In this document: positions 23,561 through 54,009 of the stretch, one piece after another
Layout: each line of letters starts with the position of its first letter
Numbering within the stretch: the first letter of the stretch is position 1
Position numbers and translations under genes: made by a program
Origin: Niabella yanshanensis
Lineage (GTDB): Bacteria; Bacteroidota; Bacteroidia; Chitinophagales; Chitinophagaceae
NCBI RefSeq assembly: GCF_034424215.1
Contig: NZ_CP139960.1
Location: forward strand, 5,208,001-5,272,000
DNA length: 64,000 nt
Direction of reading: 5' to 3'
The notes under the pieces: generated by a model
Databases searched by the model: none
What the model was told of the DNA's origin: nothing
The model's input: the letters and a program-made list of their open reading frames with translations, nothing else

Positions 23561-23571
23561 AACCTCTACGA

Positions 23572-28541: not shown

Positions 28542-29156
28542 TTACTTTGATTTATTTATTAATTTTCCCTCTGGAGTTACCTCGAAATTCAGCTCGTAAT
28601 AGTTGGTAGTGATCATCCTGCCATTTTGTTTAGATGATTCACCCTTTTTTGTGGTTTGAATATCAAACTGGTGGCCGATTCCTCCTTTTTCAACCTTTAA
28701 TGTATAATTGCCTAACCCGGCATATTCGTAATTAGTAGCATCAATTTGTTGAATAGCATCGGTAACATATTGGGCTATCTTAGAAAAATCGAATTGTGAA
28801 AGTGGCTTTGCATACCGAACCATGTCTTTGTACCAGGTAAATTCCTCCATGCTTTTTGATCCAACAGAATCTTCTGTATTTAAGCTGATTTTTATCGCCT
28901 TTAACCCCTCTGCCTTTACCACTTCAACTATTTTGGCCTCCTGTGTAAAAGATTGGCTGTTCTTGAAATCAAAATCCACTTCAAGAAGCTGCTCTTCAGG
29001 TTGTATTTTTTTTGCGATAATCCCCGGTATTTTGTTTACCTGGTCCTGCTGGCTCATGTCTACACCTCCACCGAAATTCTCTTTGACGGCTTTACAGGCC
29101 GACAGGCTGAAAATAAAAGCGGCAACCAGGATTATAATAGTATTGTTAAGTTTCAT
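28542..29156 (-). CDS. Lipoprotein of unknown function
   Basis: 204 residues from ATG 29156 (an upstream ATG at 29180 would place eight residues ahead of the signal and overlap the -7 box). The signal MKLNNTIIILVAAFIFSLSA ends at a Cys (lipobox LSAC). The mature protein is a mixed alpha/beta sequence with motifs such as KAEGLKAIKISLNTED and GIGHQFDIQTTKKGES, suggesting a beta-rich periplasmic domain. I do not recognise the family. It has its own promoter and terminator and stands 165 bases downstream of the ABC export array on the same strand. Confidence 0.8.
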   Translation of the reverse strand: MKLNNTIIILVAAFIFSLSACKAVKENFGGGVDMSQQDQVNKIPGIIAKKIQPEEQLLEVDFDFKNSQSFTQEAKIVEVVKAEGLKAIKISLNTEDSVGSKSMEEFTWYKDMVRYAKPLSQFDFSKIAQYVTDAIQQIDATNYEYAGLGNYTLKVEKGGIGHQFDIQTTKKGESSKQNGRMITTNYYELNFEVTPEGKLINKSK

Positions 29157-29177
29157 GATGCTTGAGATTTGTTTGCT

Positions 29178-29185
29178 CAAAAATA
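29178..29185 (-). promoter_or_regulatory. -7 box of the 28542-29156 lipoprotein gene
   Basis: TATTTTTG on the minus strand fits TAnnTTTG and lies 21 bases before ATG 29156. Confidence 0.4.
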
Positions 29186-29320: not shown

Positions 29321-30739
29321 TTAGAATGCGTTGTTGCTATAGAAGCTGAGTACTTTTTTTCTCAGTATATAATCGTAACGTGCGTTTACCAGGTTACGGC
29401 TGGCCCGGTCCAGGTTGTTCTTAGCTGTTAAATAATCAATGGAGTTGCCCACACCCTCATTGAATCTTGCTTCAGCCGCTTCAAAAGATTCCCTGTAAGC
29501 GGCTACCTGTTGTAGCAGGGTCTCGTATTTTTCTATTGCCGTCTGCATATTTAATGTAGCAACGTCAATATCCTGTTGTAGCTGTCTTTTAGTATCAGCT
29601 GCTATTGTAGCATTGCGTTTTACCTCCAGCTGTGCCTGTTTTATTTTGTTGCGTTGTTGCAATGCATTAAAAATAGGAATGCTTAAAGTTAGATTGAGTG
29701 AAGAGTTCAGGTTATTGTTGAGCTGTGTGCCATATGGAATGGAGCTTGTCAGGTAATTGTCCTGTTTAACAAATAAAGGGTACTGTTGTCCATTGAGCGC
29801 CACATAGTCTTCTGTCTGCCTGAAGCTGGTGTTTTGAAATTGGTTCTGCCTGGCTACGCTGGAATATTGTGTATAGGCATTTCCGCCCAGGCTTAATGTA
29901 GGCCAAAGACCACCTCTGGCCATCTGCACCGATTTTATAGAACTGAAAGTTCGCAGATCAACTGCTTTAACCAGCGCCAGTTGTTGCAGGGCAGCCTGGT
30001 AAATGCTACTTGAACTCCTGTTGTCAGCCATCGGCAAATAGCTGTCCATGGGTTCAAAGTTAAGGGTTGAATCATAGGGGATATTCATCAGCCGGAACAG
30101 GCTTAAACGGGCATTACCCAGGTTGTTTTTATTATCGGTAATTGTAAGCCGGTCATTCGCAAACTGGCCTTTAAGATCAGATAGCTCCGAAGGTTTTATC
30201 GCACCCTCTCTATTGAGTATATCCAGCCGGTCTACCTGTTGTAAGGATAATTTTGCCTGGTCTTCCAGCAGATAAGCCTGTTCAGTAAGACTTAACACCT
30301 GCAGGTAGGCGAGGGTGATGTTGATAGCCAGGTTGTCTTTTTCCTGTTGCAGTTCCATTTGTGCAGCTTTCCGGCTGAGGTCTGCCCGCCTGATATTATT
30401 CATTCGGGATAGTCCGCTGAATAACACAAGGCCACTGGCTAAACTAAAGTTGGAAGAGTTGAACGATTGCGTAACGGGTGAGTTGGTAAAAGGGTCAATG
30501 CTGCGCCCCTGGTTGAATCCATGACCTGCGCTACCGTTCAGGTCAGGCAGCAGGTTGAGCTTGCTTTGTTGATACTCCAGCTGTTCCGATTGTGCTGCAA
30601 TGCGTCTTTGCTCCACGTCAAAATTTTCCCGGATGCCTGTGTCAATACATTGTTCCAGGGTCATTGTCTTTTGCGCACTGCTTAAAGAGCTGATGCATAA
30701 AAAGACTGCTAATAGCCATATCTTCGATTGATCATTCAT
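29321..30739 (-). CDS. TolC-family outer-membrane channel of the ABC array
   Basis: 472 residues from ATG 30739. Signal peptide NDQSKIWLLAVFLCISSLSS then AQ. Two OEP repeats with long helices: TLEQCIDTGIRENFDVEQRR opens the first, and VARYR-like C-terminal helices end with LTAKNNLDRASRNLVNARYD. It is the last gene of the minus-strand array, 39 bases after the second ATPase gene, so it is the likely exit duct for substrates handled by the adaptor and the permeases. Confidence 0.9.
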   Translation of the reverse strand: MNDQSKIWLLAVFLCISSLSSAQKTMTLEQCIDTGIRENFDVEQRRIAAQSEQLEYQQSKLNLLPDLNGSAGHGFNQGRSIDPFTNSPVTQSFNSSNFSLASGLVLFSGLSRMNNIRRADLSRKAAQMELQQEKDNLAINITLAYLQVLSLTEQAYLLEDQAKLSLQQVDRLDILNREGAIKPSELSDLKGQFANDRLTITDNKNNLGNARLSLFRLMNIPYDSTLNFEPMDSYLPMADNRSSSSIYQAALQQLALVKAVDLRTFSSIKSVQMARGGLWPTLSLGGNAYTQYSSVARQNQFQNTSFRQTEDYVALNGQQYPLFVKQDNYLTSSIPYGTQLNNNLNSSLNLTLSIPIFNALQQRNKIKQAQLEVKRNATIAADTKRQLQQDIDVATLNMQTAIEKYETLLQQVAAYRESFEAAEARFNEGVGNSIDYLTAKNNLDRASRNLVNARYDYILRKKVLSFYSNNAF

Positions 30740-30778
30740 TTCTGATTCTTCTGTTTTTATATGCTGCGGGCACATCAA

Positions 30779-31441
30779 TTATTTTTCGATCATCCCGTCC
30801 AGGAGGCTGATGATACGGTTGCCGTAAGTCGCATTTTTCTCTGAATGAGTTACCTGTATTATGGTGGTGCCTTCTTTATTGAGTTGGGTAAAAAGTTCCA
30901 TGATCTCTTCGCCCTGTTTGGAATTAAGGTTACCGGTAGGTTCATCTGCCAGTAACAAGTTCGGCCGGGCAATCAACGCACGGGCGATACCTACCAACTG
31001 CTGCTGACCACCCGACAGCTGTGCCGGGAACAAGTCTTTCTTAGCAACAATATTAAAACGGTCGAGCATATCGGCTACCATCGCCTTACGGTCACTTCCT
31101 TTAACATTTTGATAAAGTAGCGGTGTTTCAATATTTTCATAAACCGTCAATTCATCTATCAGATGGTAAGCCTGAAATACAAACCCGATATGCTGTTTGT
31201 ATAAATTGGTTCTTTGCTTTTCTTTGAGCTGGTGTACCGACTCCCCAAGAAATTCGTAGGCTCCTTCGTCGAAGGTATCCAGCATGCCGATAACATTCAG
31301 TAAGGTTGATTTACCTGAACCCGATGGCCCCATAATGGATACGAATTCGCCTTCATGAATAGTGAGATTAATGTCTTTTAACAGGAAAATACGTTGATTA
31401 CCGTTGTTGACCCACTTGTAAATTTTTTTTAGTTCTAACAT
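30779..31441 (-). CDS. ABC transporter ATPase 2 of the array (MacB/LolD type)
   Basis: 220 residues. Walker A GPSGSGKST (about 40), Q-loop FVFQAYHLIDELTVYEN, signature LSGGQQQ, Walker B LLLADEPTGN, switch His in VTHSEKN. The signature is followed by LVGIARAL where the first ATPase and most relatives have RVAVARA or RVAIARA. It belongs to the MacB/LolD-like group that drives mechanotransmission rather than direct import. It lies after the sixth permease (87-base gap) and before the TolC gene. Confidence 0.93.
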   Translation of the reverse strand: MLELKKIYKWVNNGNQRIFLLKDINLTIHEGEFVSIMGPSGSGKSTLLNVIGMLDTFDEGAYEFLGESVHQLKEKQRTNLYKQHIGFVFQAYHLIDELTVYENIETPLLYQNVKGSDRKAMVADMLDRFNIVAKKDLFPAQLSGGQQQLVGIARALIARPNLLLADEPTGNLNSKQGEEIMELFTQLNKEGTTIIQVTHSEKNATYGNRIISLLDGMIEK

Positions 31442-31528
31442 TCGATTTGATTGTAATTTTTAATAAGACCAGTTGATGCTGATCGATTTTTATCTAAGTA
31501 TGTTTAATTCTTTATTGTAGATTGTACC

Positions 31529-33901
31529 TCATTCAGTTCTCAAGCTCTTAACAGGATTAGCTATGGCGGCTTTGATGGATTGAAATGAAACTGTTACAAA
31601 GGTTATTAATAAAGACAATAGCGCACTTAATACAAAAACGCTGGCTCCGATACTAATGCGATAATCATAATTCAGTAGCCATTTATGTAAAAAATAAAAG
31701 GAAACCGGAGTAGCAATTAAACAGCTGATCAGCACCAGTAGCAAAAAGTATTTCGATAATAATATCCATACCTGGCGTACAGATGCTCCGAGAACTTTTC
31801 TGATGCCTATTTCCTTTCTTCGCTGCTCTGCAACATAAGCAGCTAAGCCAAACAAACCAAGGCAGGAAATGAAAACAGAGAGCGAGGCGAATAGGGCGGC
31901 TAACTTTCCTATTAATTGTTCGAGGTTAAACTTGGTTGCATATTGCTGGTCGGAAAAAGCATACTCATAGGGGTAAGCCGGGGCGTATTTATTAAAAATT
32001 GCAGTTAGCTGTACAATGGAATGCTGCGTTTCTTTGTTAGCAGATAACCGGTATAACAAATTTCCCTGGGGCCCTGCTACGCAAAAAAACATCGTGGGAT
32101 CTGCTTTCTTAAACGGAGATACCATTAAGGCATCTTTTACAATGCCGGCGATGGTATAATTTTTTTCCTGCCAGGTTATCTTTTGTCCCACAGGATTTTT
32201 TAATCGTAGCCGTTGAATCGCCGTTTCATTAAATATTACGCTTGTACTATCGTAAGCATTTGAAAATTCCCTCCCTTCATGCATATTCATTCCAACTGTT
32301 TTAAAATAATCTTCAGACACCAGTATAGTGCCCATCTCAATCGTTTCACCTGCGTTTTTACCAGGCCAGTAGTCAATGTCAGAATGCCACCAAACATCAG
32401 TTGCCGGGCTGGTTGCGGTTGAAACCGATGAAGCAATTCCCTTTGATAGTAGCTCGTTCTTTAAAGCAGTGAAATTTTTTTGCAGATCATCGTTTATGTT
32501 AGTTGACATCAGCCTGTTTAAACTATAACCACTCGGTCTGTTTTTTGCGTATTGAATTTGTTTATAAATGATAAGGGTGCTAATGATCAGCGCAACAGAG
32601 CAACTGAACTGTATAATAACCAGCAGTTTTCTTGGAAAAGAAGATTGGCCTGTTGGGGAAAAGCCTTTTAATACCTTGACAGGATTAAATGATGAAAGAT
32701 GAAATGCAGGCCTGCTACCCGCAAGCAAAGTGATTAAAAACAGGCATCCTGTAACAGCCAGCCAGAAATAAAAACTGCCGGCCGGTACACTGATATGGCT
32801 TTGGGTAAAGGTGTTGAATACGGGTAATAATAACAATGTAAAAAGAAAAGCAAAAACAAAGGCGGTTGTTGTCAGCAGAAACGACTCCGTCAGAAATTGA
32901 ATAACAAGATGCTTTTTTTGAGAGCCGACCGCTTTTCTTACGCCCACTTCTTTCGCTCTTTTATCGGAACGTGCTGTTGTCAGATTAACGAAATTGATGC
33001 AGGCTATGATTAAAACCAGCAAACCTATAATCGAAAACATTTTCACATAGCTCAAAAAACCTGCGGTGTCTTTACCGTTAATATAATTTGAGTACAGGTG
33101 CCATCGATCCATCCGTTGCAGAATTACATAAGAATTCAACGCATTGATATTGCCTTTTTCAGCATGCTCTATATTCCTGATTTTGGGTGCAACCTGTTCA
33201 TAAGAAACACCCGGCTTTAACTTCACAAATATTTGGAGATTATTATTGCTGAAACTACTCAGGCCATCTATCTTTATTTGTGGGTTAGTAGCATATACGA
33301 AAGAGCTCGGGACTATATAATCAAAAGTAAACGTGGCATTTGACGGCACATTTTTAATAATACCTGTTACTGTAAGATCGTGTGCATTATCGAAACGGAT
33401 GGTTTTATTTATCGCTGCATCTTCATTGCCAAAAAGTGATTTTGCCAGTGATTGAGTCAATACTATTGAATAAGCATTTTTAAAGGCAGCATCAGCATTT
33501 CCTTTGATAAACGGATGTTGCAGGATTTTAAAAATATCTGCACCCGCAGTGGCGCCGTTCACATACAACTTTTTTGTGCCAACAAGTAACACATGATTCC
33601 GTGTCCAATCGCTTTCAGCTACGTATTGTACTTCCGGAATTTGGGTACGTAAGGCATCGGCTAGCTTTAGCGATGTGGTAGGAAAAGTAAGCGTATCGCC
33701 ATTGCTATTAAAGTTTCTTTGCACGCGATAAACAGATTGATATTCCGGCAGGAACCTGTCAAAAGAGTATTGCTGGTGTACCCACAAACCGATTAATAGT
33801 GTTACACACATTCCTATAGAAAGCCCTGTTACATTCAATATACTATATCCTATAGAGCTAAGTATATTTCTCCAGGCTATTTTCATATAACTGCGGAACA
33901 T
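31529..33901 (-). CDS. MacB/FtsX-type ABC permease 6
   Basis: 790 residues. Layout shared by all six: an N-terminal helix, a MacB-type periplasmic core domain (about 45-275), three or four helices, a second periplasmic domain (about 430-660) and three or four helices. It begins MFRSYMKIAWRNI and ends ANPVKSLRTE. The two coupling-helix motifs are RAKEVGVRKAVGSQKKHL and RRKEIGIRKVLGAS. No ATPase domain is fused. It is 40 bases after permease 5. The substrate is unknown. Confidence 0.92.
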   Translation of the reverse strand: MFRSYMKIAWRNILSSIGYSILNVTGLSIGMCVTLLIGLWVHQQYSFDRFLPEYQSVYRVQRNFNSNGDTLTFPTTSLKLADALRTQIPEVQYVAESDWTRNHVLLVGTKKLYVNGATAGADIFKILQHPFIKGNADAAFKNAYSIVLTQSLAKSLFGNEDAAINKTIRFDNAHDLTVTGIIKNVPSNATFTFDYIVPSSFVYATNPQIKIDGLSSFSNNNLQIFVKLKPGVSYEQVAPKIRNIEHAEKGNINALNSYVILQRMDRWHLYSNYINGKDTAGFLSYVKMFSIIGLLVLIIACINFVNLTTARSDKRAKEVGVRKAVGSQKKHLVIQFLTESFLLTTTAFVFAFLFTLLLLPVFNTFTQSHISVPAGSFYFWLAVTGCLFLITLLAGSRPAFHLSSFNPVKVLKGFSPTGQSSFPRKLLVIIQFSCSVALIISTLIIYKQIQYAKNRPSGYSLNRLMSTNINDDLQKNFTALKNELLSKGIASSVSTATSPATDVWWHSDIDYWPGKNAGETIEMGTILVSEDYFKTVGMNMHEGREFSNAYDSTSVIFNETAIQRLRLKNPVGQKITWQEKNYTIAGIVKDALMVSPFKKADPTMFFCVAGPQGNLLYRLSANKETQHSIVQLTAIFNKYAPAYPYEYAFSDQQYATKFNLEQLIGKLAALFASLSVFISCLGLFGLAAYVAEQRRKEIGIRKVLGASVRQVWILLSKYFLLLVLISCLIATPVSFYFLHKWLLNYDYRISIGASVFVLSALLSLLITFVTVSFQSIKAAIANPVKSLRTE

Positions 33902-33941
33902 ATAATTATTATTAAAAATTTTGTATTCGTGGCATTTCGTT

Positions 33942-36341
33942 TTACTCCGTTCTTAAGCTTTTTACGGGGTTTGTTAACGCTGTTTTTATGCTTTGTAAGC
34001 CGATTATTGCGATGGTGACAAATGCCAGGCATGTTACGGAAATGATAAAGGGTGTTGATGTGAGGGTTATCCGGTACGCGTAATCCTCTAGCCAATTGCT
34101 CATGATAAGATAAGCTACGGGGCAGGCGATCAGTCCGCCAATCAATACGATCACCAGGAAATCCCTGATAAAGAGAATCAGAATGCCTGTAACCGACGAG
34201 CCCAGCACTTTCCTTATCCCGATTTCTTTTGTGCGATGCCTGATGCTTAGTGATATCAGCCCTATGACTCCAAGTAGCACAATAATCAATGCCAATATTG
34301 TAGCTACATACGCCGCCTTCTTTAATTGTATTTCCGATTTATATAAATTGGCTAAGGTGTCGTCCATGAATTTATACTCAAAGGGAGCTTTACCCAGTAA
34401 TGTCGACCACTTTTTTTGTAATACATCAATATCAGAAGACAGGTTCCCGGGAGCCAGTTTAAACGACAGGTACCGGTATATTTGCGAAAACTGCACGTTG
34501 GCTATAATAACAGGTTGCACTTTTTGTTGCATTGAGCCAAAATGAAAGTCATTGGTAATGCCGGTAATTTCAAAAATGGTGGGATCGCCTAAAAATCTTA
34601 CCTGTTGGCCCAAGGCATCTTCCGAAGTATTAAATCCCAGAGACCGAATAGCTGTTTCATTCATAATAATTTTACCCGAGTCAAGTCTGTTGCCCAGGAA
34701 ACCGGTTCCGCCTGTTAAGGAAATCTGGTACAGGTTAATAAACTGCTCATCGGAGCTAAGGAATTGCATGGGTAAGGCTTTGGCAGTATCTGTGCCCTGC
34801 CGGTAGATATACGCTTGCCCGGCATTATTTCCGTCCGGAACCTCATAAGACAAGGATACATCTTTGATCCCCGGCAGCATTTTAAACTGGTTTCTTGTTG
34901 CTATCATTTTATCCACCCCTGCCTGCGACCAGTCTCTTGGCACCTGAGCAGATATAATATAATCTTTGTTATACCCCAGCTTTTTGCTCAGGAAGAAGTT
35001 AACCTGTTTGGAAATGACAATAGCTCCGACAAAAGCAACCGTTGCTGTAATAAACTGAAAAACCACAAGGCCTTTACGTAATAACACATTGTCTTTTACC
35101 GAGCCTGATTTTCCTTTTAGTGATTCAACCGATTTTAAGGATGCGAGTACAAAAGCGGGGTAAAGACCGGCTCCCATGCCTACAAAAAAAATGAATAGTA
35201 TGGGGTATAGAATATAATAAACCGGGAAGTCGCTAAGGGAAGGGATGTTTTTGCCAAGCAGGTTGCTAAAGAAGCTTTTTGTGAGCAGGTATACTGTAAA
35301 AGCCGCTACTGTAGCCAGCAATACAATGATGACTGATTCGGTAAGAAACTGGATGACCAGTTGTTTTTTTATGCCGCCCAGCACTTTCCTGATGCCAATT
35401 TCCTTCATTCTTGCCGAAGAGCGGCTTACCGACATATTAATGAAGTTGATAACAGCCATCCCTAGTATAAATAATGCTACTGCTGACAGGGCATATATCA
35501 TTTTTCTTACAACTCCATTATTTTGATCGAGGTAATAAGTTTTCAGAGGTACAAGATAGGGGGTAAGATCTTCCTGGAATTTAGTCGGTGCATCCCTTTT
35601 CATAATTTGAGCAATGGGCTGTTCAAGATCTTTTGCAGACACGCCATGCTGCAGCTCAATATAATTAGCAATTGAAGGGTTTTGCCAGCTCATCTCCCTG
35701 TTAAAAAAATCAAGGTTATCGTTGGATATAAAAAAATCACTTGGATAATCTTCTGAGAGTTGTGTCACGGAGTTTTTAGCATACCTGTTGAGCACACCGG
35801 TAATCTGGAAATCATGTTTGGCGCCGGAGAAGTTTTCCAGGGTTAGTGTCTGACCGACAATATTTGTTTTGCCAAAATATTTTTGAGCAGCCGGCTCTGT
35901 TATAACAATAGTAAAAGGTTGCGTAAGAGCTGTCGATGCATCGCCAGCTATGAGCCTGAAGCCATACATATTCAATAAAGTGCTGTCGCCAATCTGGATA
36001 CTCTCCCTGAAGCTTTTATCCTTCTTATAAATGTTTGATGTAATACCATCAAACCGGTAATAGTTTTTTACAAGACTGGGATAATCTTCTTTCAGGGTTT
36101 TTGCCAGTGGTCCAAGCGTTGCAATTTCGAACCCTTCGCCTGGGTTTTTCCATCTGCTTTGGATAACATATTGTTGCGCTATATTTTTTAAATTTCGGTT
36201 TACCTGTAGCTCTCCCCATACATAGGCCGCAATAATCAATGTAAATGCAATACCGGTAGCCAGGCCTATAACAGTAATAGCGGTGTAAAACCTGCTCTTT
36301 ACAATATTCCTCCACGCTATTTTTATATAGTTCCTGAACAT
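33942..36341 (-). CDS. MacB/FtsX-type ABC permease 5
   Basis: 799 residues, MFRNYIKIAWRNIVKSRFYT to ANPVKSLRTE. Coupling motifs are RMKEIGIRKVLGGIKKQL and RTKEIGIRKVLGSS. Its first periplasmic domain is the least like its neighbours: it begins GELQVNRNLKN where the others have an aromatic 'S-[FY]-D-[RKQH]-[FWY]' motif. Second half follows the shared layout. It lies 46 bases after permease 4. Confidence 0.92.
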   Translation of the reverse strand: MFRNYIKIAWRNIVKSRFYTAITVIGLATGIAFTLIIAAYVWGELQVNRNLKNIAQQYVIQSRWKNPGEGFEIATLGPLAKTLKEDYPSLVKNYYRFDGITSNIYKKDKSFRESIQIGDSTLLNMYGFRLIAGDASTALTQPFTIVITEPAAQKYFGKTNIVGQTLTLENFSGAKHDFQITGVLNRYAKNSVTQLSEDYPSDFFISNDNLDFFNREMSWQNPSIANYIELQHGVSAKDLEQPIAQIMKRDAPTKFQEDLTPYLVPLKTYYLDQNNGVVRKMIYALSAVALFILGMAVINFINMSVSRSSARMKEIGIRKVLGGIKKQLVIQFLTESVIIVLLATVAAFTVYLLTKSFFSNLLGKNIPSLSDFPVYYILYPILFIFFVGMGAGLYPAFVLASLKSVESLKGKSGSVKDNVLLRKGLVVFQFITATVAFVGAIVISKQVNFFLSKKLGYNKDYIISAQVPRDWSQAGVDKMIATRNQFKMLPGIKDVSLSYEVPDGNNAGQAYIYRQGTDTAKALPMQFLSSDEQFINLYQISLTGGTGFLGNRLDSGKIIMNETAIRSLGFNTSEDALGQQVRFLGDPTIFEITGITNDFHFGSMQQKVQPVIIANVQFSQIYRYLSFKLAPGNLSSDIDVLQKKWSTLLGKAPFEYKFMDDTLANLYKSEIQLKKAAYVATILALIIVLLGVIGLISLSIRHRTKEIGIRKVLGSSVTGILILFIRDFLVIVLIGGLIACPVAYLIMSNWLEDYAYRITLTSTPFIISVTCLAFVTIAIIGLQSIKTALTNPVKSLRTE

Positions 36342-36387
36342 GATATTTAGTATTTAATATTTTTAGTTTAAGATTTTACATTCCCTT

Positions 36388-38820: not shown

Positions 38821-38876
38821 ATTGCCGGTTGATGATTTGATATTGACACTTTGTGTCAACGATTTTATATCGAGTA

Positions 38877-41324: not shown

Positions 41325-41339
41325 AACCAGGGTATTGAA

Positions 41340-43727: not shown

Positions 43728-43864
43728 AAATTAATTTGAAAGTGGGTATTGCTGCTTATTGTAAGGCAAGAAGTCGGTCTGTTGTATATTCTATTATTGA
43801 TATCAGATGAGATCTTATTTTTTGATAAATTTCGCCAGGCCATTATGCAATAATTTTTAAACAT
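43709..43864 (-). pseudogene. 5' stub of a seventh MacB/FtsX permease
   Basis: In the 169-base gap between permeases 1 and 2, the minus strand from ATG 43864 reads MFKNYCIMAWRNLSKNKISS, the family N-terminus, then loses all similarity (DINNRIYNRPTSCLT...) and stops at 43709-43711. Only the first 20 or so codons are recognisable. This is what remains of a permease whose body was deleted, or a partial duplication of a permease 5' end. The stub includes a good family start and might still be translated as a short peptide, running into the permease 2 start. Confidence 0.75.
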
Positions 43865-43896
43865 GATCGTCTTTTTAAGAAGGCTGCTATTTGATC

Positions 43897-46290
43897 TCAT
43901 TCACTTCGCAAACTTTTTACAGGATTCGCTATCGCTGCTTTAACCGCTTGCGTTCCAATGGTTACCAAAACAATAACCGCAATCGTGAGGATAGTGGCTG
44001 CTGCCATAAGCCAGTTAAGATGGATGCGGTAGGCAAATGTTTGCAGCCATTTGGTGGCTGCCAGCCAGCTAAGTGGTATAGCTATCAAAAGTGCGGCAAT
44101 GATCAGCCGGAGGAAAAGCCTGCCCACCAATATTACTACATCACTAACCCCGGCGCCGAGCACCTTCCTGATGCCGATCTCCTTCGTGCGCTCTTTTATG
44201 ATGTAGGCAGTTAATGCAAAGAGTCCCATTGCCGATATCATTATAGCAACCAGCGCAAAGAAGCTGATGGTTTTTTGAATGGTATAATAGGTGTTAAATA
44301 TTCTCTGGAAATTTTCATCAAGAAAGCTATACCTGATGGGGGCATCCGGTTCAATTTGTTTCCAGCTGGTTTCTATATTGCCGATTGTTTGCGATAGGTT
44401 GTTACCCGAAAGCTTCGCTAACAGCGCTCCGCCAGACAGATATCCGCATGCTTTATTGTTAATAGAGTAGGCAACAGGTCTTACTGCGTTAGCCATATCC
44501 TGCACATTGATGTCCTTTGTAATGCCTACTACCTCAGCTTTAACCGAGTCGCAGTAGGGCATTCCTACAAAAGAGCCAATTGCTTTTTGATCGCCCCAAA
44601 GTCGTGCTGCGGTCTCGTTTAAGATAATGCTGCGTGTATTTTGATCCGCATAGCTGTCATTAAAGTCCCTGCCCTTTAATACTGGGGTTCCAATGGTTTT
44701 AAAGTAGTCAGCACTTACTTTAACCGTGGTCATTTTTATCGTTTGCCCATTGAAGGTATAGTTGTTTAGTATTGTATCCACTTCGGCATCGCCTGGTACC
44801 AACGTTGTTTTGGATACCAGCTCAACGCCGGGGACAGACAGGAGCGCAGTGCGGGCTTTATCAAACCCTTCTTCTCTCGTGCCTTGCTGTGCTTCAATAC
44901 GAACTATTTGAGCACCGGAAAACCCTTTATCTTTTGTTTGCATGTAATGAACCTGCGAGGTAATAACAATAACAGCGAAAACAAAGAACGCGGAAAGCGT
45001 AAACTGTACAACCAGTAAGAAATTTCGAAGCTTCAGGCCCGACCTGCCTTGTGAATAATTGCCCTTTAATATTTTAGACGTGTTAAAACGGGACAGGAAG
45101 ACCGAAGGGTAGAGGCCTGACAATAAAATTACAGTAGTAACACTTAAAGCTATCTGAAAGATAAAATAAGGGATATTTGAGCCCCAAATAGAAAATTGGA
45201 TATTAAACTCCTGTTTGAACCATGGCATTAATGCTATTACCAGCAGTATCGCAATACATAAGCTTATTGAACAAAATAGAATGGCTTCACCCATAAACTG
45301 CCAGAACAGTTGTCTTCTGTTGCCCCCTAAAACTTTTCTTACACCAACTTCTTTGGCTCTTTTAATGGATGCGGCGATGGATAGATTGCTGAAGTTTACG
45401 GCTCCGGCAACTAATAATAGAAAAGCCAGGACCAGCAATATCACTATGGTTTTGAAATTACTGCCACCACTTTTGGGAAAATTATGGAGCGCTGATAATT
45501 TTTCGGAGAATACAAGCGTTTTGCTATCTCTTTCCAGGTATTGCTGATAGGTGAGATTATCTTTTTTTTGCTGGTCGGTATAATAAATATTGTTGATGTC
45601 ATACTCTAGCTGTTGAGCTGTAACAGCCTTCTTTATTTTTATAAAGGTTTGATAAGAGAAATTCTGCCAGTGATTGTTGGATTTTTCGTAAGGCGAGCGG
45701 AATAGTACCTGCATATTTAACGCAGATGGCTGATCAGGCGATTGCATGATGCCGGTTACTACCACCTCCAGCCGGCCATAAAGTTGGATCGTTTTTCCGA
45801 TCGGGTCTTCGTTATCAAAAAGCTTCTCCTTAACGGCTTCTGTGATTACGGCTGCGTTGGGAGCATTTAAAACAGTATTTATATTGCCCGAAGATAGTTG
45901 ATAGGGGAATACTTTAAAAAAATGGGAGTCTACTTCGGTAATTCCTTTTTGATATATTTTTTTATCATTGGCCCCTACCAGTATTTCGTATTCTCCGGCG
46001 CCACTTATGCGCGTAGCGGCTTCAGCATTGCTATACTTATCGGTTATCAGCCGACCCAGGGGTTCAGGAGTGGCACCATTCCAGGCAATACCATCTTTGT
46101 CTTCAAGTCCGAGCTTATAAATTTTGTCCAGTTCAGGGTTCCATTTGTCATAGCTTAACTCATAGTTCAAAAAAAGAAGTACCAATACAAAACTGGCCAG
46201 GCCAACACCCAGTCCAATGATATTGATGGCGCTATACCATTTATTATTTCGCAGATTTCTCCAGGCTATTTTTATGTAATTTTTGAACAT
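43897..46290 (-). CDS. MacB/FtsX-type ABC permease 1
   Basis: 797 residues from ATG 46290 (an ATG three codons upstream is less likely because the family starts MFKNYIKIAWRN). C-terminus ANPVKSLRSE. Coupling motifs RAKEVGVRKVLGGNRRQL and RTKEIGIRKVLGAG. First periplasmic domain begins ELSYDKWNPELDKIYKL. It lies 51 bases after the first ATPase gene, so this is the permease most likely to pair with that ATPase. Confidence 0.92.
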   Translation of the reverse strand: MFKNYIKIAWRNLRNNKWYSAINIIGLGVGLASFVLVLLFLNYELSYDKWNPELDKIYKLGLEDKDGIAWNGATPEPLGRLITDKYSNAEAATRISGAGEYEILVGANDKKIYQKGITEVDSHFFKVFPYQLSSGNINTVLNAPNAAVITEAVKEKLFDNEDPIGKTIQLYGRLEVVVTGIMQSPDQPSALNMQVLFRSPYEKSNNHWQNFSYQTFIKIKKAVTAQQLEYDINNIYYTDQQKKDNLTYQQYLERDSKTLVFSEKLSALHNFPKSGGSNFKTIVILLVLAFLLLVAGAVNFSNLSIAASIKRAKEVGVRKVLGGNRRQLFWQFMGEAILFCSISLCIAILLVIALMPWFKQEFNIQFSIWGSNIPYFIFQIALSVTTVILLSGLYPSVFLSRFNTSKILKGNYSQGRSGLKLRNFLLVVQFTLSAFFVFAVIVITSQVHYMQTKDKGFSGAQIVRIEAQQGTREEGFDKARTALLSVPGVELVSKTTLVPGDAEVDTILNNYTFNGQTIKMTTVKVSADYFKTIGTPVLKGRDFNDSYADQNTRSIILNETAARLWGDQKAIGSFVGMPYCDSVKAEVVGITKDINVQDMANAVRPVAYSINNKACGYLSGGALLAKLSGNNLSQTIGNIETSWKQIEPDAPIRYSFLDENFQRIFNTYYTIQKTISFFALVAIMISAMGLFALTAYIIKERTKEIGIRKVLGAGVSDVVILVGRLFLRLIIAALLIAIPLSWLAATKWLQTFAYRIHLNWLMAAATILTIAVIVLVTIGTQAVKAAIANPVKSLRSE

Positions 46291-46341
46291 ATAATTCAAC
46301 TTAAAGCGGAGCGTTTGATGTTTAATATTTAATATTCTCTC

Positions 46342-47019
46342 TTACACTAATATATTCTCCGTAACTGTCTGGCCATCCAGCATGCGTATGATACGGTGAC
46401 TATAGCGCGCATCATGCTCGCTGTGAGTTACCATGATAATGGTAGTGCCCTGCTCATTGAGATCGGTTAGCATCTCCATTACTTCGTTGCCATTGGACGA
46501 GTCCAGATTACCGGTTGGCTCATCGGCCAGTATCAGCTTAGGTTTGTTTACAACAGCCCGGGCAACAGCTACTCTTTGTTGCTGTCCGCCCGATAGCTGT
46601 TGAGGGTAATGGTTGCGACGATGCATGATCTGTACTTTTTCAAGCACTTCCTCCACCCGTTTTTTACGATCTGCATTTTTTACGCCGGTGTAAATCAGGG
46701 GCAGTTCAACATTCTCAAAAACAGTTAGTTCGTCAATCAAGTTAAAGCTTTGAAAAACGAATCCGATATTATGCTTTCTCAGATCTGCTCTTTTGCGCTC
46801 ATTGAAGTGTGCTACTTCAATTCCGTTGAAAATAAAACTGCCGCCATCCGGATCGTCCAGCAGGCCCAATATATTCAATAAAGTAGATTTGCCACAGCCG
46901 GAGGGCCCCATTACGGCTACAAATTCTCCTTCTTTTACTTCGAGAGACAATTTGTTAAGTGCAATGGTTTCTACTTCTTCAGTCCGGTACATTTTTTCCA
47001 GATCGGTAATTTTTATCAT
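46342..47019 (-). CDS. ABC transporter ATPase 1 of the array (MacB/LolD type)
   Basis: 225 residues. Walker A GPSGCGKST, Q-loop FVFQSFNLIDELTVFEN, signature LSGGQQQRVAVARA, Walker B LILADEPTGN, switch His in VTHSEHD. The insertion LPLIYTGVKNADRKKR is typical of the MacB/LolD group. It sits between the adaptor and permease 1 (50 and 51 bases). With the second ATPase it gives two motor subunits for six permeases. Confidence 0.95.
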   Translation of the reverse strand: MIKITDLEKMYRTEEVETIALNKLSLEVKEGEFVAVMGPSGCGKSTLLNILGLLDDPDGGSFIFNGIEVAHFNERKRADLRKHNIGFVFQSFNLIDELTVFENVELPLIYTGVKNADRKKRVEEVLEKVQIMHRRNHYPQQLSGGQQQRVAVARAVVNKPKLILADEPTGNLDSSNGNEVMEMLTDLNEQGTTIIMVTHSEHDARYSHRIIRMLDGQTVTENILV

Positions 47020-47069
47020 ATAAAAGATTTCAAATTCGAAGGTTTTAAGTTTAATTCCGGTAATTACAT

Positions 47070-48326
47070 TTATTTTTTGATCACTAATTCCTGCATATCT
47101 TCTCCGTAATTCTCATAGCTGCTCGTAACTACTTTATCACCTGGTTTGAGTCCGCTCATCACTTCAAAATAGTCGGGGTTTTGCCGTCCCAGCTCAATAT
47201 CAGTTTTGTAAGCAACGGATCCGTCGCTGCTGAGTTTGTATACCCATCTGCCACCGGTTTTGTTATAAAAACCTCCTCTTGCCAGTAATAAAGCTTTTGT
47301 TTCATCGCTTAAGGCCAGGCGTATTTGTAATGTTTGTCCCCGCCTGATACCATCAGGAGCTTTGCTTTCAAAAGCCATATCCACCGAGAATTTCCCGTTG
47401 GCCACCTGTGTATAAACTTTTTTAATAGTTAGTAGATAATCTTTACCGCCAATAGTAGCAATGCCTTCCAATCCATTATAGATGCGGTTGATATAATGCT
47501 CGTCTATATCTACCCGTACTTTATAATCGCCAATCACATCCAGTTGCCCCAGTCTTTCCCCCTTATTTTTATTCTGGCCCACTTCTGCATCCAGCGAGGT
47601 GAGTTGTCCGTCAACCGGAGCTCGTACAATCAAATCTCCGACTTTTTGGCGCATTACCGATAAGGCATTTTGTGAGCCGTTATAAGATTGTTGCGCCTGT
47701 ACCAGCTGTTGCTTCGAGGATTGGGCATCCTGGCTAATCGTTTCGGTCGCCAGGTTCTTTTTTGCCATCTGGTAATTATAGGCGTTTTCACTTTGCTTCA
47801 GCTCCTGCAAACCAATAGCCTTTTTATCATATAACTTTTTATTAAGCGTATATACGCGATCTGCTTCTTTCAGTTCATTGTCTACATCAGTCATCTGGTT
47901 AAGGTTGGTAATACGGTTTTGCTGGGAGGCATTTTTGGCAATCTGCATTTGTGTGATCAGGTTGTATACCTGGGTTTCCTGTTGCACCAGGCTTAGCTGC
48001 AGATCCGTATTCGAGAGTCGAAGGATGGGCTGCCCTTTTTTCATGATGGCGCCATCTTCTACCAATTTTTCTTCTACACGACCACCTTCTGCCGCATCAA
48101 GGTAAATGGACGTAAGGGGTTGCACTACGCCATTCACGGGTATAAACTCCTGGAAATTCCCTTGTTTTACTTCGCTGATAGTAATGCGTTCCGCCTCAAC
48201 ATTGAGTTTCGTATTACCAGTGGTCGCATAAATACTGGCTACAATCAGCATTACCAGGCCGGCAACACCTGCAATCAGCATGATCTTTTTCTTTGACCAT
48301 TTTTTTTGTTCAATTTTCCTGTCCAA
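47070..48326 (-). CDS. HlyD/MacA-type periplasmic adaptor, TTG start
   Basis: 418 residues. A cytoplasmic basic start (MDRKIEQKKWSKKK), one inner-membrane helix (about 15-35), a barrel-sandwich pair (VNGVVQPLTSIYLDAAEGGR and VRAPVDGQLTSLDAEVGQN) around a long coiled coil (about 110-220), and a beta-barrel with a final GLKPGDKVVTSSYENYGED. The TTG at 48324-48326 is taken as start because an in-frame TAA lies four codons ahead, and the next ATG (residue 16) would cut into the basic lead. It is the first gene of the array. It should bridge the inner-membrane permeases and the TolC-like channel. Confidence 0.9.
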   Translation of the reverse strand: MDRKIEQKKWSKKKIMLIAGVAGLVMLIVASIYATTGNTKLNVEAERITISEVKQGNFQEFIPVNGVVQPLTSIYLDAAEGGRVEEKLVEDGAIMKKGQPILRLSNTDLQLSLVQQETQVYNLITQMQIAKNASQQNRITNLNQMTDVDNELKEADRVYTLNKKLYDKKAIGLQELKQSENAYNYQMAKKNLATETISQDAQSSKQQLVQAQQSYNGSQNALSVMRQKVGDLIVRAPVDGQLTSLDAEVGQNKNKGERLGQLDVIGDYKVRVDIDEHYINRIYNGLEGIATIGGKDYLLTIKKVYTQVANGKFSVDMAFESKAPDGIRRGQTLQIRLALSDETKALLLARGGFYNKTGGRWVYKLSSDGSVAYKTDIELGRQNPDYFEVMSGLKPGDKVVTSSYENYGEDMQELVIKK

Positions 48327-48399
48327 CCTACTAGTTTTTTAATGGTACGATGTGTTGTATGCTGATATGAACCAGTCATGCCCGGTTTCCTCCTGCTTA

Positions 48400-48435
48400 A
48401 AAAGCTGCCGGATTTTTGAAAGAGCAATCCGGCAG
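48400..48435 (-). promoter_or_regulatory. Perfect 10-bp hairpin with U-tract in the adaptor leader
   Basis: CTGCCGGATT (48405-48414) and AATCCGGCAG (48426-48435) form a perfect stem with an 11-base loop. Read on the minus strand it is followed by CTTTTT, so it has the form of an intrinsic terminator. No gene upstream on the minus strand needs a terminator there, and it lies about 75 bases ahead of the adaptor start, so an attenuator or a regulator-binding palindrome is likely. Confidence 0.6.
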
Positions 48436-48463
48436 TAAAACATGAGAGAAAATCACTGATGCC

Positions 48464-48479
48464 TGGTAATACCATGCCA
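48464..48479 (-). promoter_or_regulatory. Weak sigma-54-like promoter for the ABC array
   Basis: On the minus strand TGGCAT (-24 element) is followed after five bases by TACCA, compared with TTGCA at -12. The -24 part fits well, and the invariant GC of the -12 part is CC. Support comes from context: an NtrC-type activator is encoded divergently next to it. Low confidence. Confidence 0.25.
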
Positions 48480-48629
48480 TGATTGTAATTTATTTATCTT
48501 CAACTCAGTATGTGTTTTATTGGGTTGAGGTGCTGTTCGGAATCGTACACCAGCTGTCCGGTTTTGATACAGTTTTTGCAATTATCGCCGAACCCGGTAT
48601 AAAAATGCATATCGGGTATCCAAATGTGG

Positions 48630-48637
48630 TATTATTG
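48630..48637 (+). promoter_or_regulatory. Candidate -7 box of the response-regulator gene
   Basis: TATTATTG, one base from TAnnTTTG, nine bases before ATG 48647. Confidence 0.3.
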
Positions 48638-48646
48638 CATTGGCAA

Positions 48647-49999
48647 ATGTCTTTAAAAAATATATCCATATTAGCTGTTGATGACGATGCAGATATGCTC
48701 ACTGCCTTGCGTTTGTTATTGAAGGCAGAAGTGAAGCAGATCGTTACTGAAAAGAATCCTGAAAATATACGCACCCATTTATTAGAGCAAAAGTTTGACC
48801 TGCTGTTGCTTGACATGAATTTTACGAGCGCCCTTCACACGGGCAATGAGGGGCTTTACTGGTTGCGGAAGGCTAAATCCTTAGATCCAGGAATACAGGT
48901 AGTGATGATCACCGCCTACGGTGATATTGATTTAGCCGTTCGCAGTTTAAAAGATGGAGCGGCAGACTTTATTGTAAAGCCCTGGCATAATGAAAAAATG
49001 CTGGAGACTATTAAGGAGATAGTGGCGCAAAAAAATAAGTCTGCCAGAGGGGCCGTTAATGCGCTGCTACAGGCAGATGCTGCTTTTATTGCTGAGTCTC
49101 CGGCTATGCAGGATATCTTATATAAGATCAGGAAAATAGCGCCTACAGAAGCCAATATCCTGATACTGGGCGAAAACGGCACCGGTAAAGACCTGGTAGC
49201 TCAGTTAATACATCAACAGTCTTTGCGCCATAAAGGTCCTTTTATAAAAACCGATGTAGGCGCGCTAACTGCCAGTCTTTTTGAGAGTGAATTGTTTGGT
49301 TATAAACGGGGCGCTTTTACCGATGCAAGAGCAGATAGGGCAGGACGTTTTGAAATGGCTTCGGGTGGTTCGCTCTTTTTAGATGAGATCGGGAATATCG
49401 CCTTACCTCAACAGGCAAAATTACTAACTGTTTTACAAAATCGCGTGGTCCACCGCCTGGGTAGCAGCGAGCCCCAACCGGTTAACATCCGCCTGATATG
49501 CGCTACCAACCTGCCTTTGCAGGAGCTGGCCAATGAACAGCGCTTCCGTCGTGACCTGGTGTACCGGATCAATACAGTAGAGATTACCATTCCACCGTTG
49601 CGTGAAAGACGGGAAGATATTTTACCCCTGGCGCAGTATTTTCTTAAAATGTATAGCGAAAAATACCTGAAACCATCCTTGTCAATAAGCAGGCAGGCAA
49701 TGGAAAAGTTGAGATTGTATCATTACCCGGGCAATGTCAGGGAATTGCAATATGCCATAGAAAGAGCGGTGATCATGTGTGAGGGAAGATACCTGGATGC
49801 GAACGACCTCGTTTTTTCGCCCATCGAAAAGCACCAGGCGCAGGACCAGGAGCCAACACAGACGAACCTGGAGGCCCTGGAAAAAAATACCATCATCAGG
49901 GTTGTTGAAAAGCATAACGGGAATATTACCAAAGCCGCAAAAGAGCTGGGACTTACACGTACCGCTTTGTACAGGCGGTTAAGTAAGTATGATATTTAG
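48647..49999 (+). CDS. NtrC-family sigma-54-dependent response regulator
   Basis: 450 residues from ATG 48647; a longer frame from 48479 adds residues with no domain. Receiver domain 5-125 with acidic DDDAD and phosphoacceptor Asp56 (LLLDMNF) and the Lys in FIVKPW. AAA+ domain about 150-370 with Walker A GENGTGKD (175), Walker B GGSLFLDEIGN and an R-finger region. The sigma-54 contact loop, normally GAFTGA, reads GAFTDA at 222-227. C-terminal Fis-type HTH is NITKAAKELGLTRTALYRRL. It is divergent from the adaptor gene and 2 bases ahead of a histidine kinase, so it probably controls the ABC array. Confidence 0.95.
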   Translation: MSLKNISILAVDDDADMLTALRLLLKAEVKQIVTEKNPENIRTHLLEQKFDLLLLDMNFTSALHTGNEGLYWLRKAKSLDPGIQVVMITAYGDIDLAVRSLKDGAADFIVKPWHNEKMLETIKEIVAQKNKSARGAVNALLQADAAFIAESPAMQDILYKIRKIAPTEANILILGENGTGKDLVAQLIHQQSLRHKGPFIKTDVGALTASLFESELFGYKRGAFTDARADRAGRFEMASGGSLFLDEIGNIALPQQAKLLTVLQNRVVHRLGSSEPQPVNIRLICATNLPLQELANEQRFRRDLVYRINTVEITIPPLRERREDILPLAQYFLKMYSEKYLKPSLSISRQAMEKLRLYHYPGNVRELQYAIERAVIMCEGRYLDANDLVFSPIEKHQAQDQEPTQTNLEALEKNTIIRVVEKHNGNITKAAKELGLTRTALYRRLSKYDI

Positions 50000-50001
50000 T
50001 T

Positions 50002-51333
50002 ATGGTAATACATCAAAAATACAGACCCAGGTATGTGCTACGGTTGGTATTGCTGTTTGTTTCGTTGTTGGTTACAGCCTGGTTTTTTCTAAAAGCAGCA
50101 TACGTTGTATCCGTTTTGTTTATGATACTATCGGTGGTTCAGGCGTACCTGTTTTATAAACTGGTTATGATACCATTTACCGAAATAGAAGATTTTGCTG
50201 CCGCCGCCAGATACCGCGATTTTTCCCGCCATTTTAATATTGATAAGGCACCCGCCGAATTGCGCTCACTAAGAAGCGACTTTAACCTGATCAACCAAAC
50301 CTTTAAGTCGATAACAAGAGAAAAAGAAACCCAGTATCAATATCTTCAGAAAATACTGGAGTTGATACAAACCGGTATCCTGTTATATGATACAGAAACA
50401 GGAAAGGTAAGCTGGGTGAACGAATCGTTAAAGAAGATACTGGAACTACCTTATATACCTAATCTGCATCTGATCGAAAAAAAGAATGCAATCATTTATA
50501 ATGCGGTGGCAAGCCTGGAGCCCGGTCAGAGTACTGTACTGCTGCTGGATGCAGACCAGCAAAAGCTGATGCTTTCGGCGGCAACTTTCGTAACGGAGGG
50601 TAAAAGTCATAAGCTGGTAGCGCTGCAAAATATCAATGAAGCGCTTGATGAAAACGAAGCCCGGTCATGGCAGAAATTGTTGAGCGTAATGACTCATGAG
50701 ATCATGAACTCGGTAGCGCCCATTGCCTCATTGGCTGCTACTTTAAAACAACAGTTGCAGTCTGGGGTGGAGCATTTTGCTTCTTCTAAAGAGGATCTGG
50801 AGCTGGGCATTGAAACGATACAGCGGAGAAGTGAAGGCCTGATGCAGTTTGCAGCCACTTATCGCACGCTAAACAAAATAACCAGCTCCGGTAAACAGTC
50901 TTTCCTGGTAGGAGACCTGTTTGAAAATGTATTGCAATTACTAGGTCCCAAGATAGAGCAGCGGGCTATTAACGCCGATATTATCTTAAAAGACCCTTTA
51001 ATGAAACTGAGCGCTGACCGGCATTTAATTGAACAGGTGTTGATCAACCTGGTGCTCAACGCAATTGATGCCTTAAAAGATGTTTCTGACCCGAAGGTAG
51101 TACTTTCAGGTTACCTTAATAATGATGGTCGTATTATTATTACTATCACCGATAATGGGGCAGGGATTCCTGCAGACATAATGGAAAAAGTTTTTATTCC
51201 CTTTTTTAGTACCAAAGCCAGCGGAAGCGGCATTGGTTTAAGTCTGTGTAAACAGATCATGCTATTACACAAAGGAAATATCCACGTCAAATCGGTACCC
51301 GCGTCGGGTACTATTTTTTATTTGCAGTTTTAA
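50002..51333 (+). CDS. Sensor histidine kinase, NtrY-like
   Basis: 443 residues. Two N-terminal membrane helices (about 12-55) with almost no periplasmic loop between them, so it likely senses within the membrane or cytoplasm. A linker/HAMP-like part and a PAS-like region (about 110-215) follow. The H-box is VMTHEIMNSVAPIASLA with His232; N-box LVLNAIDAL, DNGAGIP and STKASGSGIGLSL form the ATP site. It pairs with the regulator just upstream. Its stop overlaps the convergent GtrA-like gene by four bases. Confidence 0.93.
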   Translation: MVIHQKYRPRYVLRLVLLFVSLLVTAWFFLKAAYVVSVLFMILSVVQAYLFYKLVMIPFTEIEDFAAAARYRDFSRHFNIDKAPAELRSLRSDFNLINQTFKSITREKETQYQYLQKILELIQTGILLYDTETGKVSWVNESLKKILELPYIPNLHLIEKKNAIIYNAVASLEPGQSTVLLLDADQQKLMLSAATFVTEGKSHKLVALQNINEALDENEARSWQKLLSVMTHEIMNSVAPIASLAATLKQQLQSGVEHFASSKEDLELGIETIQRRSEGLMQFAATYRTLNKITSSGKQSFLVGDLFENVLQLLGPKIEQRAINADIILKDPLMKLSADRHLIEQVLINLVLNAIDALKDVSDPKVVLSGYLNNDGRIIITITDNGAGIPADIMEKVFIPFFSTKASGSGIGLSLCKQIMLLHKGNIHVKSVPASGTIFYLQF

Positions 51334-53895: not shown

Positions 53896-53960
53896 ATGTG
53901 TCGGGGGGAGTATGTCAGCACATAGCCAGGTGTAATTATTCACCAACTAGTGAGTAATTT

Positions 53961-53968
53961 TACATTTG
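53961..53968 (+). promoter_or_regulatory. -7 box for the 54010-54873 gene
   Basis: TACATTTG fits TAnnTTTG and lies 41 bases before ATG 54010. It argues against an in-frame GTG at 53950, which would be upstream of it. Confidence 0.45.
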
Positions 53969-54009
53969 TACCCGATATTTATTTTGAGATTGAATCTAAT
54001 TACTATAAT

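Follow-up and report, generated by a model that had tools for sequence, protein, structure and literature searches.

The array of permease genes described here, from the 5.54-Mb, single-contig genome of Niabella yanshanensis, is probably best understood as an exporter of the MacB superfamily in which interchangeable permeases operate on a shared chassis. In the window, by which we mean the whole 64,000-nucleotide stretch that was analysed, a kinase/NtrC-type regulator pair is followed by an adaptor, a first ATPase (ATP1), six permeases of about 800 amino acids, a second ATPase (ATP2) and a TolC-type channel. A first-pass annotation had claimed such a co-directional run from adaptor to channel, and all of its members are present on the minus strand, at the positions it had given, with every gene of the locus intact:

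50002..51333, plus strand: histidine kinase; two TM helices, very short loop, weak PAS-like match, HATPase_c
48647..49999, plus strand: NtrC-family response regulator; receiver, sigma-54 AAA+, Fis HTH; GAFTDA replaces GAFTGA
48555..48571, strand not given: putative regulator site TGTCCGGTTTTGATACA (TGT-N11-ACA)
48534..48549, strand not given: second, weaker tandem site, reading TGTACGATTCCGAACA on the adaptor strand, 22 bp on from the regulator site
48464..48479, minus strand: sigma-54-like element TGGCATGGTATTACCA, 92 bp from the regulator site; -12 half degenerate
47070..48326, minus strand: HlyD/RND-type periplasmic adaptor (MFP)
46342..47019, minus strand: ATPase 1 (LSGGQQQR type)
43897..46290, minus strand: permease 1
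43795..43864, minus strand: scar, 5' end of a lost permease (MFKNYCIMAWRNLSKNK...)
41340..43727, minus strand: permease 2; modelled with 8 TM helices and two periplasmic domains
38877..41324, minus strand: permease 3
36388..38820, minus strand: permease 4
33942..36341, minus strand: permease 5
31529..33901, minus strand: permease 6
30779..31441, minus strand: ATPase 2 (LSGGQQQL type)
29321..30739, minus strand: TolC-type outer-membrane channel (OEP); ORF opens at 30778

The response regulator probably begins near 48647 (MSLKNIS) rather than at 48479, where its ORF opens, because the conserved regulatory site occupies 48555-48571. Permease 4 probably starts at 38820 and not at the ORF opening at 38991, so that it does not overlap permease 3, and the start of permease 1 is probably the ATG at 46290. 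Collapse or expansion of the assembly, which the first-pass annotation had named among the findings that would refute it, is unlikely, given that the genome is a single contig, that 26 further closed arrays come from the family, some of them on single-contig genomes, and that named genomes have the same array start.

Permease architecture and the partner set

What is the significance of six permeases next to a single adaptor and a single channel? This stoichiometry had been put forward as unexplained, and the puzzle becomes smaller once the build of the permeases is considered. All six carry MacB_PCD and FtsX above the Pfam cut-offs, FtsX being found twice in every one of them and MacB_PCD twice in four (E 0.001); this combination, with which the fold matches agree, places them in the Type VII/MacB ABC superfamily. 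A structural model of permease 2 has eight TM helices arranged as 4+4 and two periplasmic domains. Each permease is a fused pair of half-transporters, so that the six represent six alternative pumps rather than one six-part pump. An alignment of 238 permeases bears out the shared ends, the two coupling motifs and the divergent periplasmic domains noted earlier: the ends and two coupling regions are conserved, and the periplasmic domains are variable.

Foldseek matched the permease model to YbbAP, MacB, LolCDE and BceAB(S), the best match being YbbAP with a TM-score of only 0.46. Escherichia coli YbbAP(-TesA) resembles the array in its fused permease of ~800 amino acids, its two periplasmic domains and its separate ATPase, but no adaptor or channel is reported for it in the source excerpts, whereas the array has both. 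Moreover, YbbP carries two extra helices between its halves (PMC5985334, in part) and ten TM helices in all, in contrast to the eight of the 4+4 model, and the YbbP model NF041854 gives 22-23 bits of 999 for two of the six permeases and no match for the other four. MacAB-TolC shares with the array a MacB_PCD plus FtsX permease, an adaptor and a TolC-type channel, and the model's best matches include MacB structures; nevertheless, MacB forms homodimers and has its ATPase fused to it (PMC5985334, in part), whereas the arrays combine separate ATPases of two types with 1-19 fused permeases, and at no more than 67 bits against the cut-off of 966 for the MacB model NF007826, the permeases fall outside MacAB-TolC proper. 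The full-length best match of all six is ADOP (TIGR03434), at 236-348 bits and hence below its cut-off of 622; ADOPs are named as orphans, unlike the array permeases, which sit in a complete exporter frame. DarB comes second to ADOP, with at most 181 bits against a cut-off of 700.

Mechanotransmission in the Type VII/MacB superfamily is driven by an ATPase that is either separate or fused. Both ATPases of the array possess the ATPase motifs, and their signatures are fixed, LSGGQQQR in all 32 copies of ATP1 read and LSGGQQQL in all 27 copies of ATP2 read, which implies two constant ATPase types at any permease number; ATP2 was undetected in one closed array (G074). Median pairwise identity is 88 for ATP1, 77 for ATP2, 69 for the adaptor, 41 for the channel and 51 for the best permease pair. 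In all 16 genomes compared, ATP1 is better conserved than a control ATPase of MacB type, although by just 1-5 points in six genomes of the genus, and it ranks above an FtsE-like control in all 10 of the 16 that have an FtsE-like match. Among curated NCBIfam models, DarD matches both ATPases best, and DarC is the best match of the adaptor; the scores, 302 for ATP1 and 257 for ATP2 against a DarD cut-off of 375, and 180 for the adaptor against a DarC cut-off of 450, place the array outside the darobactin exporters.

Permease number and turnover

The adaptor-ATPase-channel frame is common to many Bacteroidota, and what differs is the permease content. Among 33 annotated loci of the family, a channel gene closes the array in 27, and the number of permeases, which the first-pass annotation had suggested counting, runs from 1 to 19 in the 25 closed arrays with readable frames, each with one adaptor and one channel. 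The best match of a permease lies in another genome in 260 cases out of 268 and within its own array in only eight, so that recent tandem duplication, an origin likewise proposed for checking, is rejected as the main source of the arrays. A few younger pairs were seen (G010 permeases 1/2 at 88%, G033 2/3 at 73% and G076 2/3 at 63%).

As adaptor identity falls, the mean shared permease fraction declines from 0.84 through 0.33 and 0.14 to 0.08, and none of the window's six permeases recurs in G016, the closest relative whose frames are intact. Such comparison shows that permeases are gained and lost as whole genes across lineages. Between permeases 1 and 2, a gap of 169 bp preserves 70 bp from the start of a lost, seventh permease, and another genome (G009) carries a longer, frame-broken copy of it between the orthologues of the same two genes; this remnant had been overlooked in the first-pass annotation. 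A test for within-gene shuffling found no half-gene mosaic among 296 pairs with one half at least 60% identical, the criterion being an 18-point difference. Pooled dN/dS of permease orthologues is 0.04-0.09 in periplasmic and membrane parts (five genome pairs), which points to purifying selection, and diversifying selection on the periplasmic domains was not found in these five pairs, in some of which dS is saturated. There are also transfer outliers, such as G008_9/G016_2, at 82% against 67% for the adaptor, and G001_07/G010_05, with a dS of 0.19-0.25 against a pooled 0.86-0.96; because they are few and scattered, a general mechanism of between-lineage transfer is not supported.

The divergent regulator and its putative sites

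The earlier suggestion of condition-specific, NtrC-type regulation has now gained a concrete site and a promoter-like element. The response regulator unites a receiver, a sigma-54 AAA+ domain and a Fis HTH, as NtrC-family members do, and rpoN was found in the genome. Regulators of these loci carry GAFTDA in 68 of 82 cases and GAFTGA in two, neither motif being found in the remaining 12. Hydropathy gives exactly two TM helices for 69 of the 72 kinases from these loci, with loops of at most 11 residues; they thus have the build of intramembrane-sensing kinases, i.e. two TM helices without a periplasmic domain. With up to two mismatches, the regulator site occurs in 80 of the 81 intergenic regions between response regulator and adaptor (0.2 in shuffles). 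TGGCAY is found on the adaptor strand in 79 of these regions, as opposed to 14 on the other strand, and in 78 of the 81 it lies ~90 bp from TGT-N11-ACA. Strict sigma-54 scans upstream of the adaptor, including TGG[CT][AG]N6TTGC[AT] in the 81 regions, gave no match; the sigma-54-like element is a post hoc find, because it becomes visible only after anchoring on the regulator site, and its -12 half is weakly defined and degenerate.

How specific is the regulator site? The window genome holds a single match when one mismatch is allowed (48555-48571), and across 17 genomes of the genus there are 31 exact sites, 22 at the array and nine just before an orphan permease. Around these orphans, which bear the array's regulatory site in nine genus genomes, no ATPase, adaptor or channel was found within 5-8 kb. 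The regulon therefore looks private to the array and the orphan permeases. The site was seen in only three of 20 phylum loci, a count that excludes the upstream region. A divergent regulator next to the adaptor is missing from 15 of 80 named loci, some of which are ended by contig ends; L081, L082, L084 and L095 lack it though they are not short, and none was found within 4 kb in G140.

A probable shared chassis and the competing explanations

All these features probably work together as follows. The kinase with its NtrC-type regulator, the single adaptor, the two unlike ATPases and the single TolC-type channel would form a chassis that stays constant. The fused MacB-superfamily permeases would be its cartridges; in every one of them the transmembrane half-pair is complete and comes with two periplasmic domains of its own. 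ATP1 and ATP2 would power any permease present via the conserved coupling regions, the periplasmic domains would choose the substrate, and adaptor and channel would expel it from the cell. Acting with sigma-54, the regulator would activate the array, internal stretches of long arrays and the orphan permease where one exists, and specificity would shift in lineages through gain or loss of whole permease genes. Comparison shows the frame, the varying permease number, the turnover of whole genes and how specific the regulator site is; we infer the sharing of the ATPases, the regulator's use of its site, the export direction, the substrate class and the sensing route of the kinase. Shared motors with separate substrates had been suggested before; one adaptor and one channel at one to 19 permeases, the conservation of ATP1 and the partnerless orphan with the same site support the idea and stop short of proof.

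The usual picture of an exporter is a single transporter and the partners that belong to it. In these arrays, one partner set seems to work for a library of pumps that can change and that reaches 19 members, and permease exchange on shared motors, adaptor and exit, under a private switch, would be an unusual way to build an exporter. A literature search, with most subscription papers out of its scope, retrieved no recognisable description of such permease arrays. Because permeases can be deleted singly while the chassis stays as it is, how a tripartite exporter acquires new substrates becomes directly testable; the regulator site seems specific enough to locate orphan pumps elsewhere in a genome, and the array offers a route to annotating a large class of unnamed Bacteroidota permeases.

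Could the permeases be receptors as well? In a Bce-like arrangement, which may hold together with the shared chassis and which we regard as possible yet doubtful, the kinase would read their transport activity, a whole panel of detectors thus feeding into one kinase. BceRS is not known to be of the NtrC type, whereas the kinase and regulator found here are; the link between kinase and permeases consists here of genetic linkage and site specificity alone, and the weak PAS-like match suggests that the kinase could sense in the cytoplasm. The idea draws on the two-helix, short-looped kinases, on the confinement of exact genus sites to array and orphans, as in a closed loop, on BceAB(S) among the fold matches and on the Bce precedent itself, an FtsX-type fused permease with a kinase devoid of a sensor domain (PMC5985334 and PMC7828314, both in part). 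Bce systems themselves are Gram-positive, with one periplasmic domain and without an adaptor. Carried to its end, this thought would make the array a Gram-negative multi-receptor Bce module, in which every swappable permease would pump its own compound and also detect it, all would report to one sensor-less kinase that activates array and orphans through a private sigma-54 regulon, and the repertoire of detection and export would be edited by whole-permease exchange; we put this forward only tentatively.

Envelope maintenance, in which membrane lipids or acylated molecules would be pulled out as by YbbP and passed to periplasmic hydrolases or expelled via the channel, seems improbable. YbbAP, the best fold match, is reported to extract hydrophobic compounds (PMC12646458, in part), and some genus arrays contain S41 peptidase, beta-lactamase-fold or alpha/beta hydrolase genes; however, no hydrolase gene is among those called in the window array, permease turnover is ill-suited to a housekeeping role, and adaptor and channel indicate export. 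The Dar matches could instead hint that the array exports peptides which the cell itself makes, in the way DarBCD handles darobactin, but every Dar score stays under its curated cut-off, the array has six permeases, and the genes called in it (precursor-sized ORFs lie outside this set) include no modification enzyme or other biosynthetic gene, making this very unlikely. Neutral expansion into redundant tandem copies without separate roles is already unlikely and earns hardly any credence from us: multi-copy permeases of such sort are reported in Bacteroidota, two Dyadobacter carrying 28 and 33 ADOP copies (PMC11573002, in part), yet the median best identity within an array is 39%, just six of 268 permeases have a paralogue of at least 60% in their array, and the low dN/dS of orthologues speaks against it.

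For the exporter with interchangeable permeases, the most likely use would be to remove, as the need arises, harmful envelope-active compounds encountered during competition (peptides, lipophilic antibiotics), a substrate class suggested by family analogy and by a repeat-protein cargo. This cargo is absent from the window and has no direct match to Pfam DUF4097; the name DUF4097-like reflects its 47% identity to a protein of G000 whose locus passes PF13349. It accompanies 14 of 33 family arrays but only two of the 80 named and none of the 20 phylum loci, the majority of which are partial.

Frame and permease number

The ten genes reported by the first-pass annotation, namely an adaptor, a first ATPase (ATP1), six permeases of about 800 residues (P1 to P6), a second ATPase (ATP2) and a TolC-type channel, lie where it placed them, co-directional, intact and separated by small gaps. 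The observation holds and goes beyond its first statement: the array is best read as a modular exporter whose permeases are interchangeable and whose regulon looks private, which adds a new variant to the MacB superfamily. The genome of the window (5.54 Mb, single contig, completeness 99.99%) gave ten matches to the ADOP permease model (TIGR03434), the six array permeases and four partial ones, and the same search found no further full-length ADOP-type permease in it beyond the array's six.

Neighbours of the array in the window
22404-28039 (+): complete RND efflux operon (adaptor, AcrB-type pump, channel), past the array end on the opposite strand, its channel gene converging with that of the array
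28542-29180: one ORF without Pfam match, separating the array from the RND operon
53950-54873 (307 aa) and 54894-56609 (571 aa): a pair of ORFs lacking a Pfam match, with argS on one side and, on the other, a glycan-use locus (MFS, GH130, SusD, TonB-dependent receptor; 56620-63649)

At a cut-off of E 1e-40 the adaptor was detected in 13 of the 17 genus genomes and in 69 of the 147 family genomes drawn, and at E 1e-60 in 92 of the 296 phylum genomes drawn; at least one array-type permease was present in 18 of the 20 phylum stretches examined, four or more in several. Arrays were compared in 32 other genomes, chosen by adaptor match and mostly for long contigs, and the resulting 33 loci, window included, were annotated by BLAST against the window's genes. 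The channel gene closes 27 of them, six being open (G014, G033, G064, G067, G104 and G140). Two closed arrays, from genomes G005 and G009, have broken frames and were left out of the permease counts, which thus cover 25 arrays and permeases of at least 650 aa; the stretches concerned (L032 and L031, respectively) contain many broken frames, like unpolished assemblies. The frame recurs in many Bacteroidota, with one to 19 permeases in the closed family arrays counted, the array of 19 lying on a single-contig genome.

Permeases per closed array (permeases: genomes; 25 arrays)
1: 1; 2: 4; 4: 1; 5: 1; 6: 2 (window included); 7: 4; 8: 3
10: 1; 11: 1; 13: 3; 16: 1; 17: 2; 19: 1

The strict order adaptor-ATP1-permeases-ATP2-channel holds in 24 of the 27 closed arrays. 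Permeases are placed between adaptor and ATP1 in G016 and G076 (closed) and in G033 (open), and ATP2 was not detected in the closed array of G074; 26 of 27 closed arrays end in ATP2-channel. A divergent regulator/kinase pair accompanies the adaptor at 16 of the 17 loci where the DNA upstream of it is covered (the exception is G140), and a divergent regulator was found at 65 of 80 named loci, selected by ATP1 similarity. In genome G119 (L050/L061), the permeases and ATP2 are separated by 7.8 kb in which no array gene was recognised.

What drives so variable a set of permeases? ATP1 is 86-98% identical to that of the window in 16 genomes, across which a MacB-type control ATPase reaches 55-94%; an FtsE-like control reaches 56-89% in the ten that gave a match. 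ATP1 tops the controls in every comparison, by just 1-5 points in six genus genomes. A fixed position adjoining the signature separates the two ATPases, being R in 32/32 ATP1 and L in 27/27 ATP2 sequences read. Both types are present at one permease just as at 19, which suggests a generic, perhaps heterodimeric motor. For permease 2, an AlphaFold model (66 sequences, pLDDT 84, pTM 0.78) predicts 4+4 membrane helices and two periplasmic domains; its best PDB matches are YbbAP, MacB, LolCDE and BceAB. Over the whole chain the TM-scores are modest, 0.46 at best.

Turnover of permeases

Turnover was followed in 270 permeases from 31 loci (without G005 and G009), 268 of them from arrays holding more than one. 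For 260 of these 268 the best match lies in another genome; the median best identity is 67% to other genomes and 39% inside the own array. The share of orthologues (reciprocal best matches of at least 55% identity) between two arrays was tabulated by adaptor identity, and order among shared permease genes was kept in 536 of 618 comparisons.

Mean share of orthologues by adaptor identity
At least 95%: 0.84 (3 pairs)
80-95%: 0.33 (32 pairs)
70-80%: 0.14 (97 pairs)
60-70%: 0.08 (155 pairs)
Lower: 0.02 (13 pairs)

The window and G016 have adaptors 87%, ATP1 98% and ArgS 83% identical and no permease in common above 40%. By adaptor pieces, the frame-broken G005 and G009 are closer to the window: G005 carries all six window permeases in unchanged order at 83-87% DNA identity, and G009 retains P1 and P2 as well as a diverged P4 (64.5% DNA), with no match to P3, P5 or P6 in their expected places and with an additional gene between P1 and P2. 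Because the first 70 bp of this gene persist between P1 and P2 of the window, the window lineage has most likely lost a permease there. Half-gene mosaics were found in 0 of 296 permease pairs. Orthologues in five genome pairs gave a pooled dN/dS of 0.05-0.08 in the periplasmic parts and 0.04-0.09 in the rest, single permease genes reaching up to 0.14. Each permease seems to be retained for a fixed job, change occurring chiefly by whole genes.

Regulator site and orphan permeases

A word count over 81 intergenic regions between regulator and adaptor, 65 from named loci and 16 from the family, found TTTTGATACA in 56, and the full site TGTNCGNTTTTGATACA (TGT-N11-ACA) occurs with at most two mismatches in 80, against 0.2 in shuffles. 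On the adaptor strand the element TGGCAY was present in 79/81 regions, against 14/81 on the other strand (shuffles 12.4 +- 3.4); in 78/81 it stands 55-115 bp from a site. Spacing between site and element is 90-99 bp in 77 pairs and 60-69 bp in 23, two classes that fit tandem sites 22 bp apart. Counted from the first base of the element, T stands at +10 in 78% and at +11 in 99%, the next G in only 37%; the arrangement resembles an NtrC/sigma-54 promoter whose -12 half is loosely defined. Long arrays carry extra sites in the gaps preceding later permeases or ATP2, and 20 of 27 internal sites have TGGCAY within 220 bp. Three sites seemingly inside the regulator gene fall, in our reading, within over-long regulator ORFs.

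Exact sites in the 17 genus genomes number 31, with 22 at the array locus and nine elsewhere, and every one of these nine stands 53-130 bp upstream of an ORF for an array-type permease away from the array (L201-L209, nine genomes; eight encode about 800 aa and the ninth is truncated at a contig end). These orphan permeases are orthologous between genomes (75-97%), and no match to the array ATPases, adaptor or channel was found in the 5-8 kb examined near each; no such orphan was found in the window's genome. A permease with no partners close by, under the array's own site, is the best sign that permeases may plug into a shared chassis of regulator pair, adaptor, ATPases and channel. With one mismatch allowed, 54 matches were obtained versus six for the reversed pattern. 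Fifteen of the 23 one-mismatch sites stand away from arrays (in G002, G003, G004, G006, G009, G010 and G013-G016; the other eight are at arrays); they may mark further regulon targets or be chance matches.

Cargo and sensing

Do the permeases only export? Exactly two membrane helices lie in the first 200 residues of 69 of 72 kinases, the loops being no longer than 11 residues, and kinases of this kind in Bacillus are reported to rely on a partner FtsX-type transporter (PMC5985334, PMC7828314). Loop-poor kinases and the Bacillus precedent together lend weight to the alternative that the permeases also act as receptors for the kinase through a putative interaction. As for the modular exporter itself, a secreted-looking TSGG-repeat protein is encoded on the same strand in 14 of 33 family arrays (for example L027:11981-13078), including seven from the genus, and in 2/80 named and 0/20 phylum loci, most of which span the array only in part; the window's array has no such gene. 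The protein is related to DUF4097, which we take to be the Toastrack domain. Operons that combine a gene for a Toastrack-domain protein with those for an ABC ATPase and permease are described in a PSP survey (PMC11237479). By analogy, the DUF4097-like cargo and these operons, together with the family and the permease turnover, point to envelope-active compounds as candidate substrates. Some arrays also hold S41 peptidase, beta-lactamase-fold and alpha/beta hydrolase genes.
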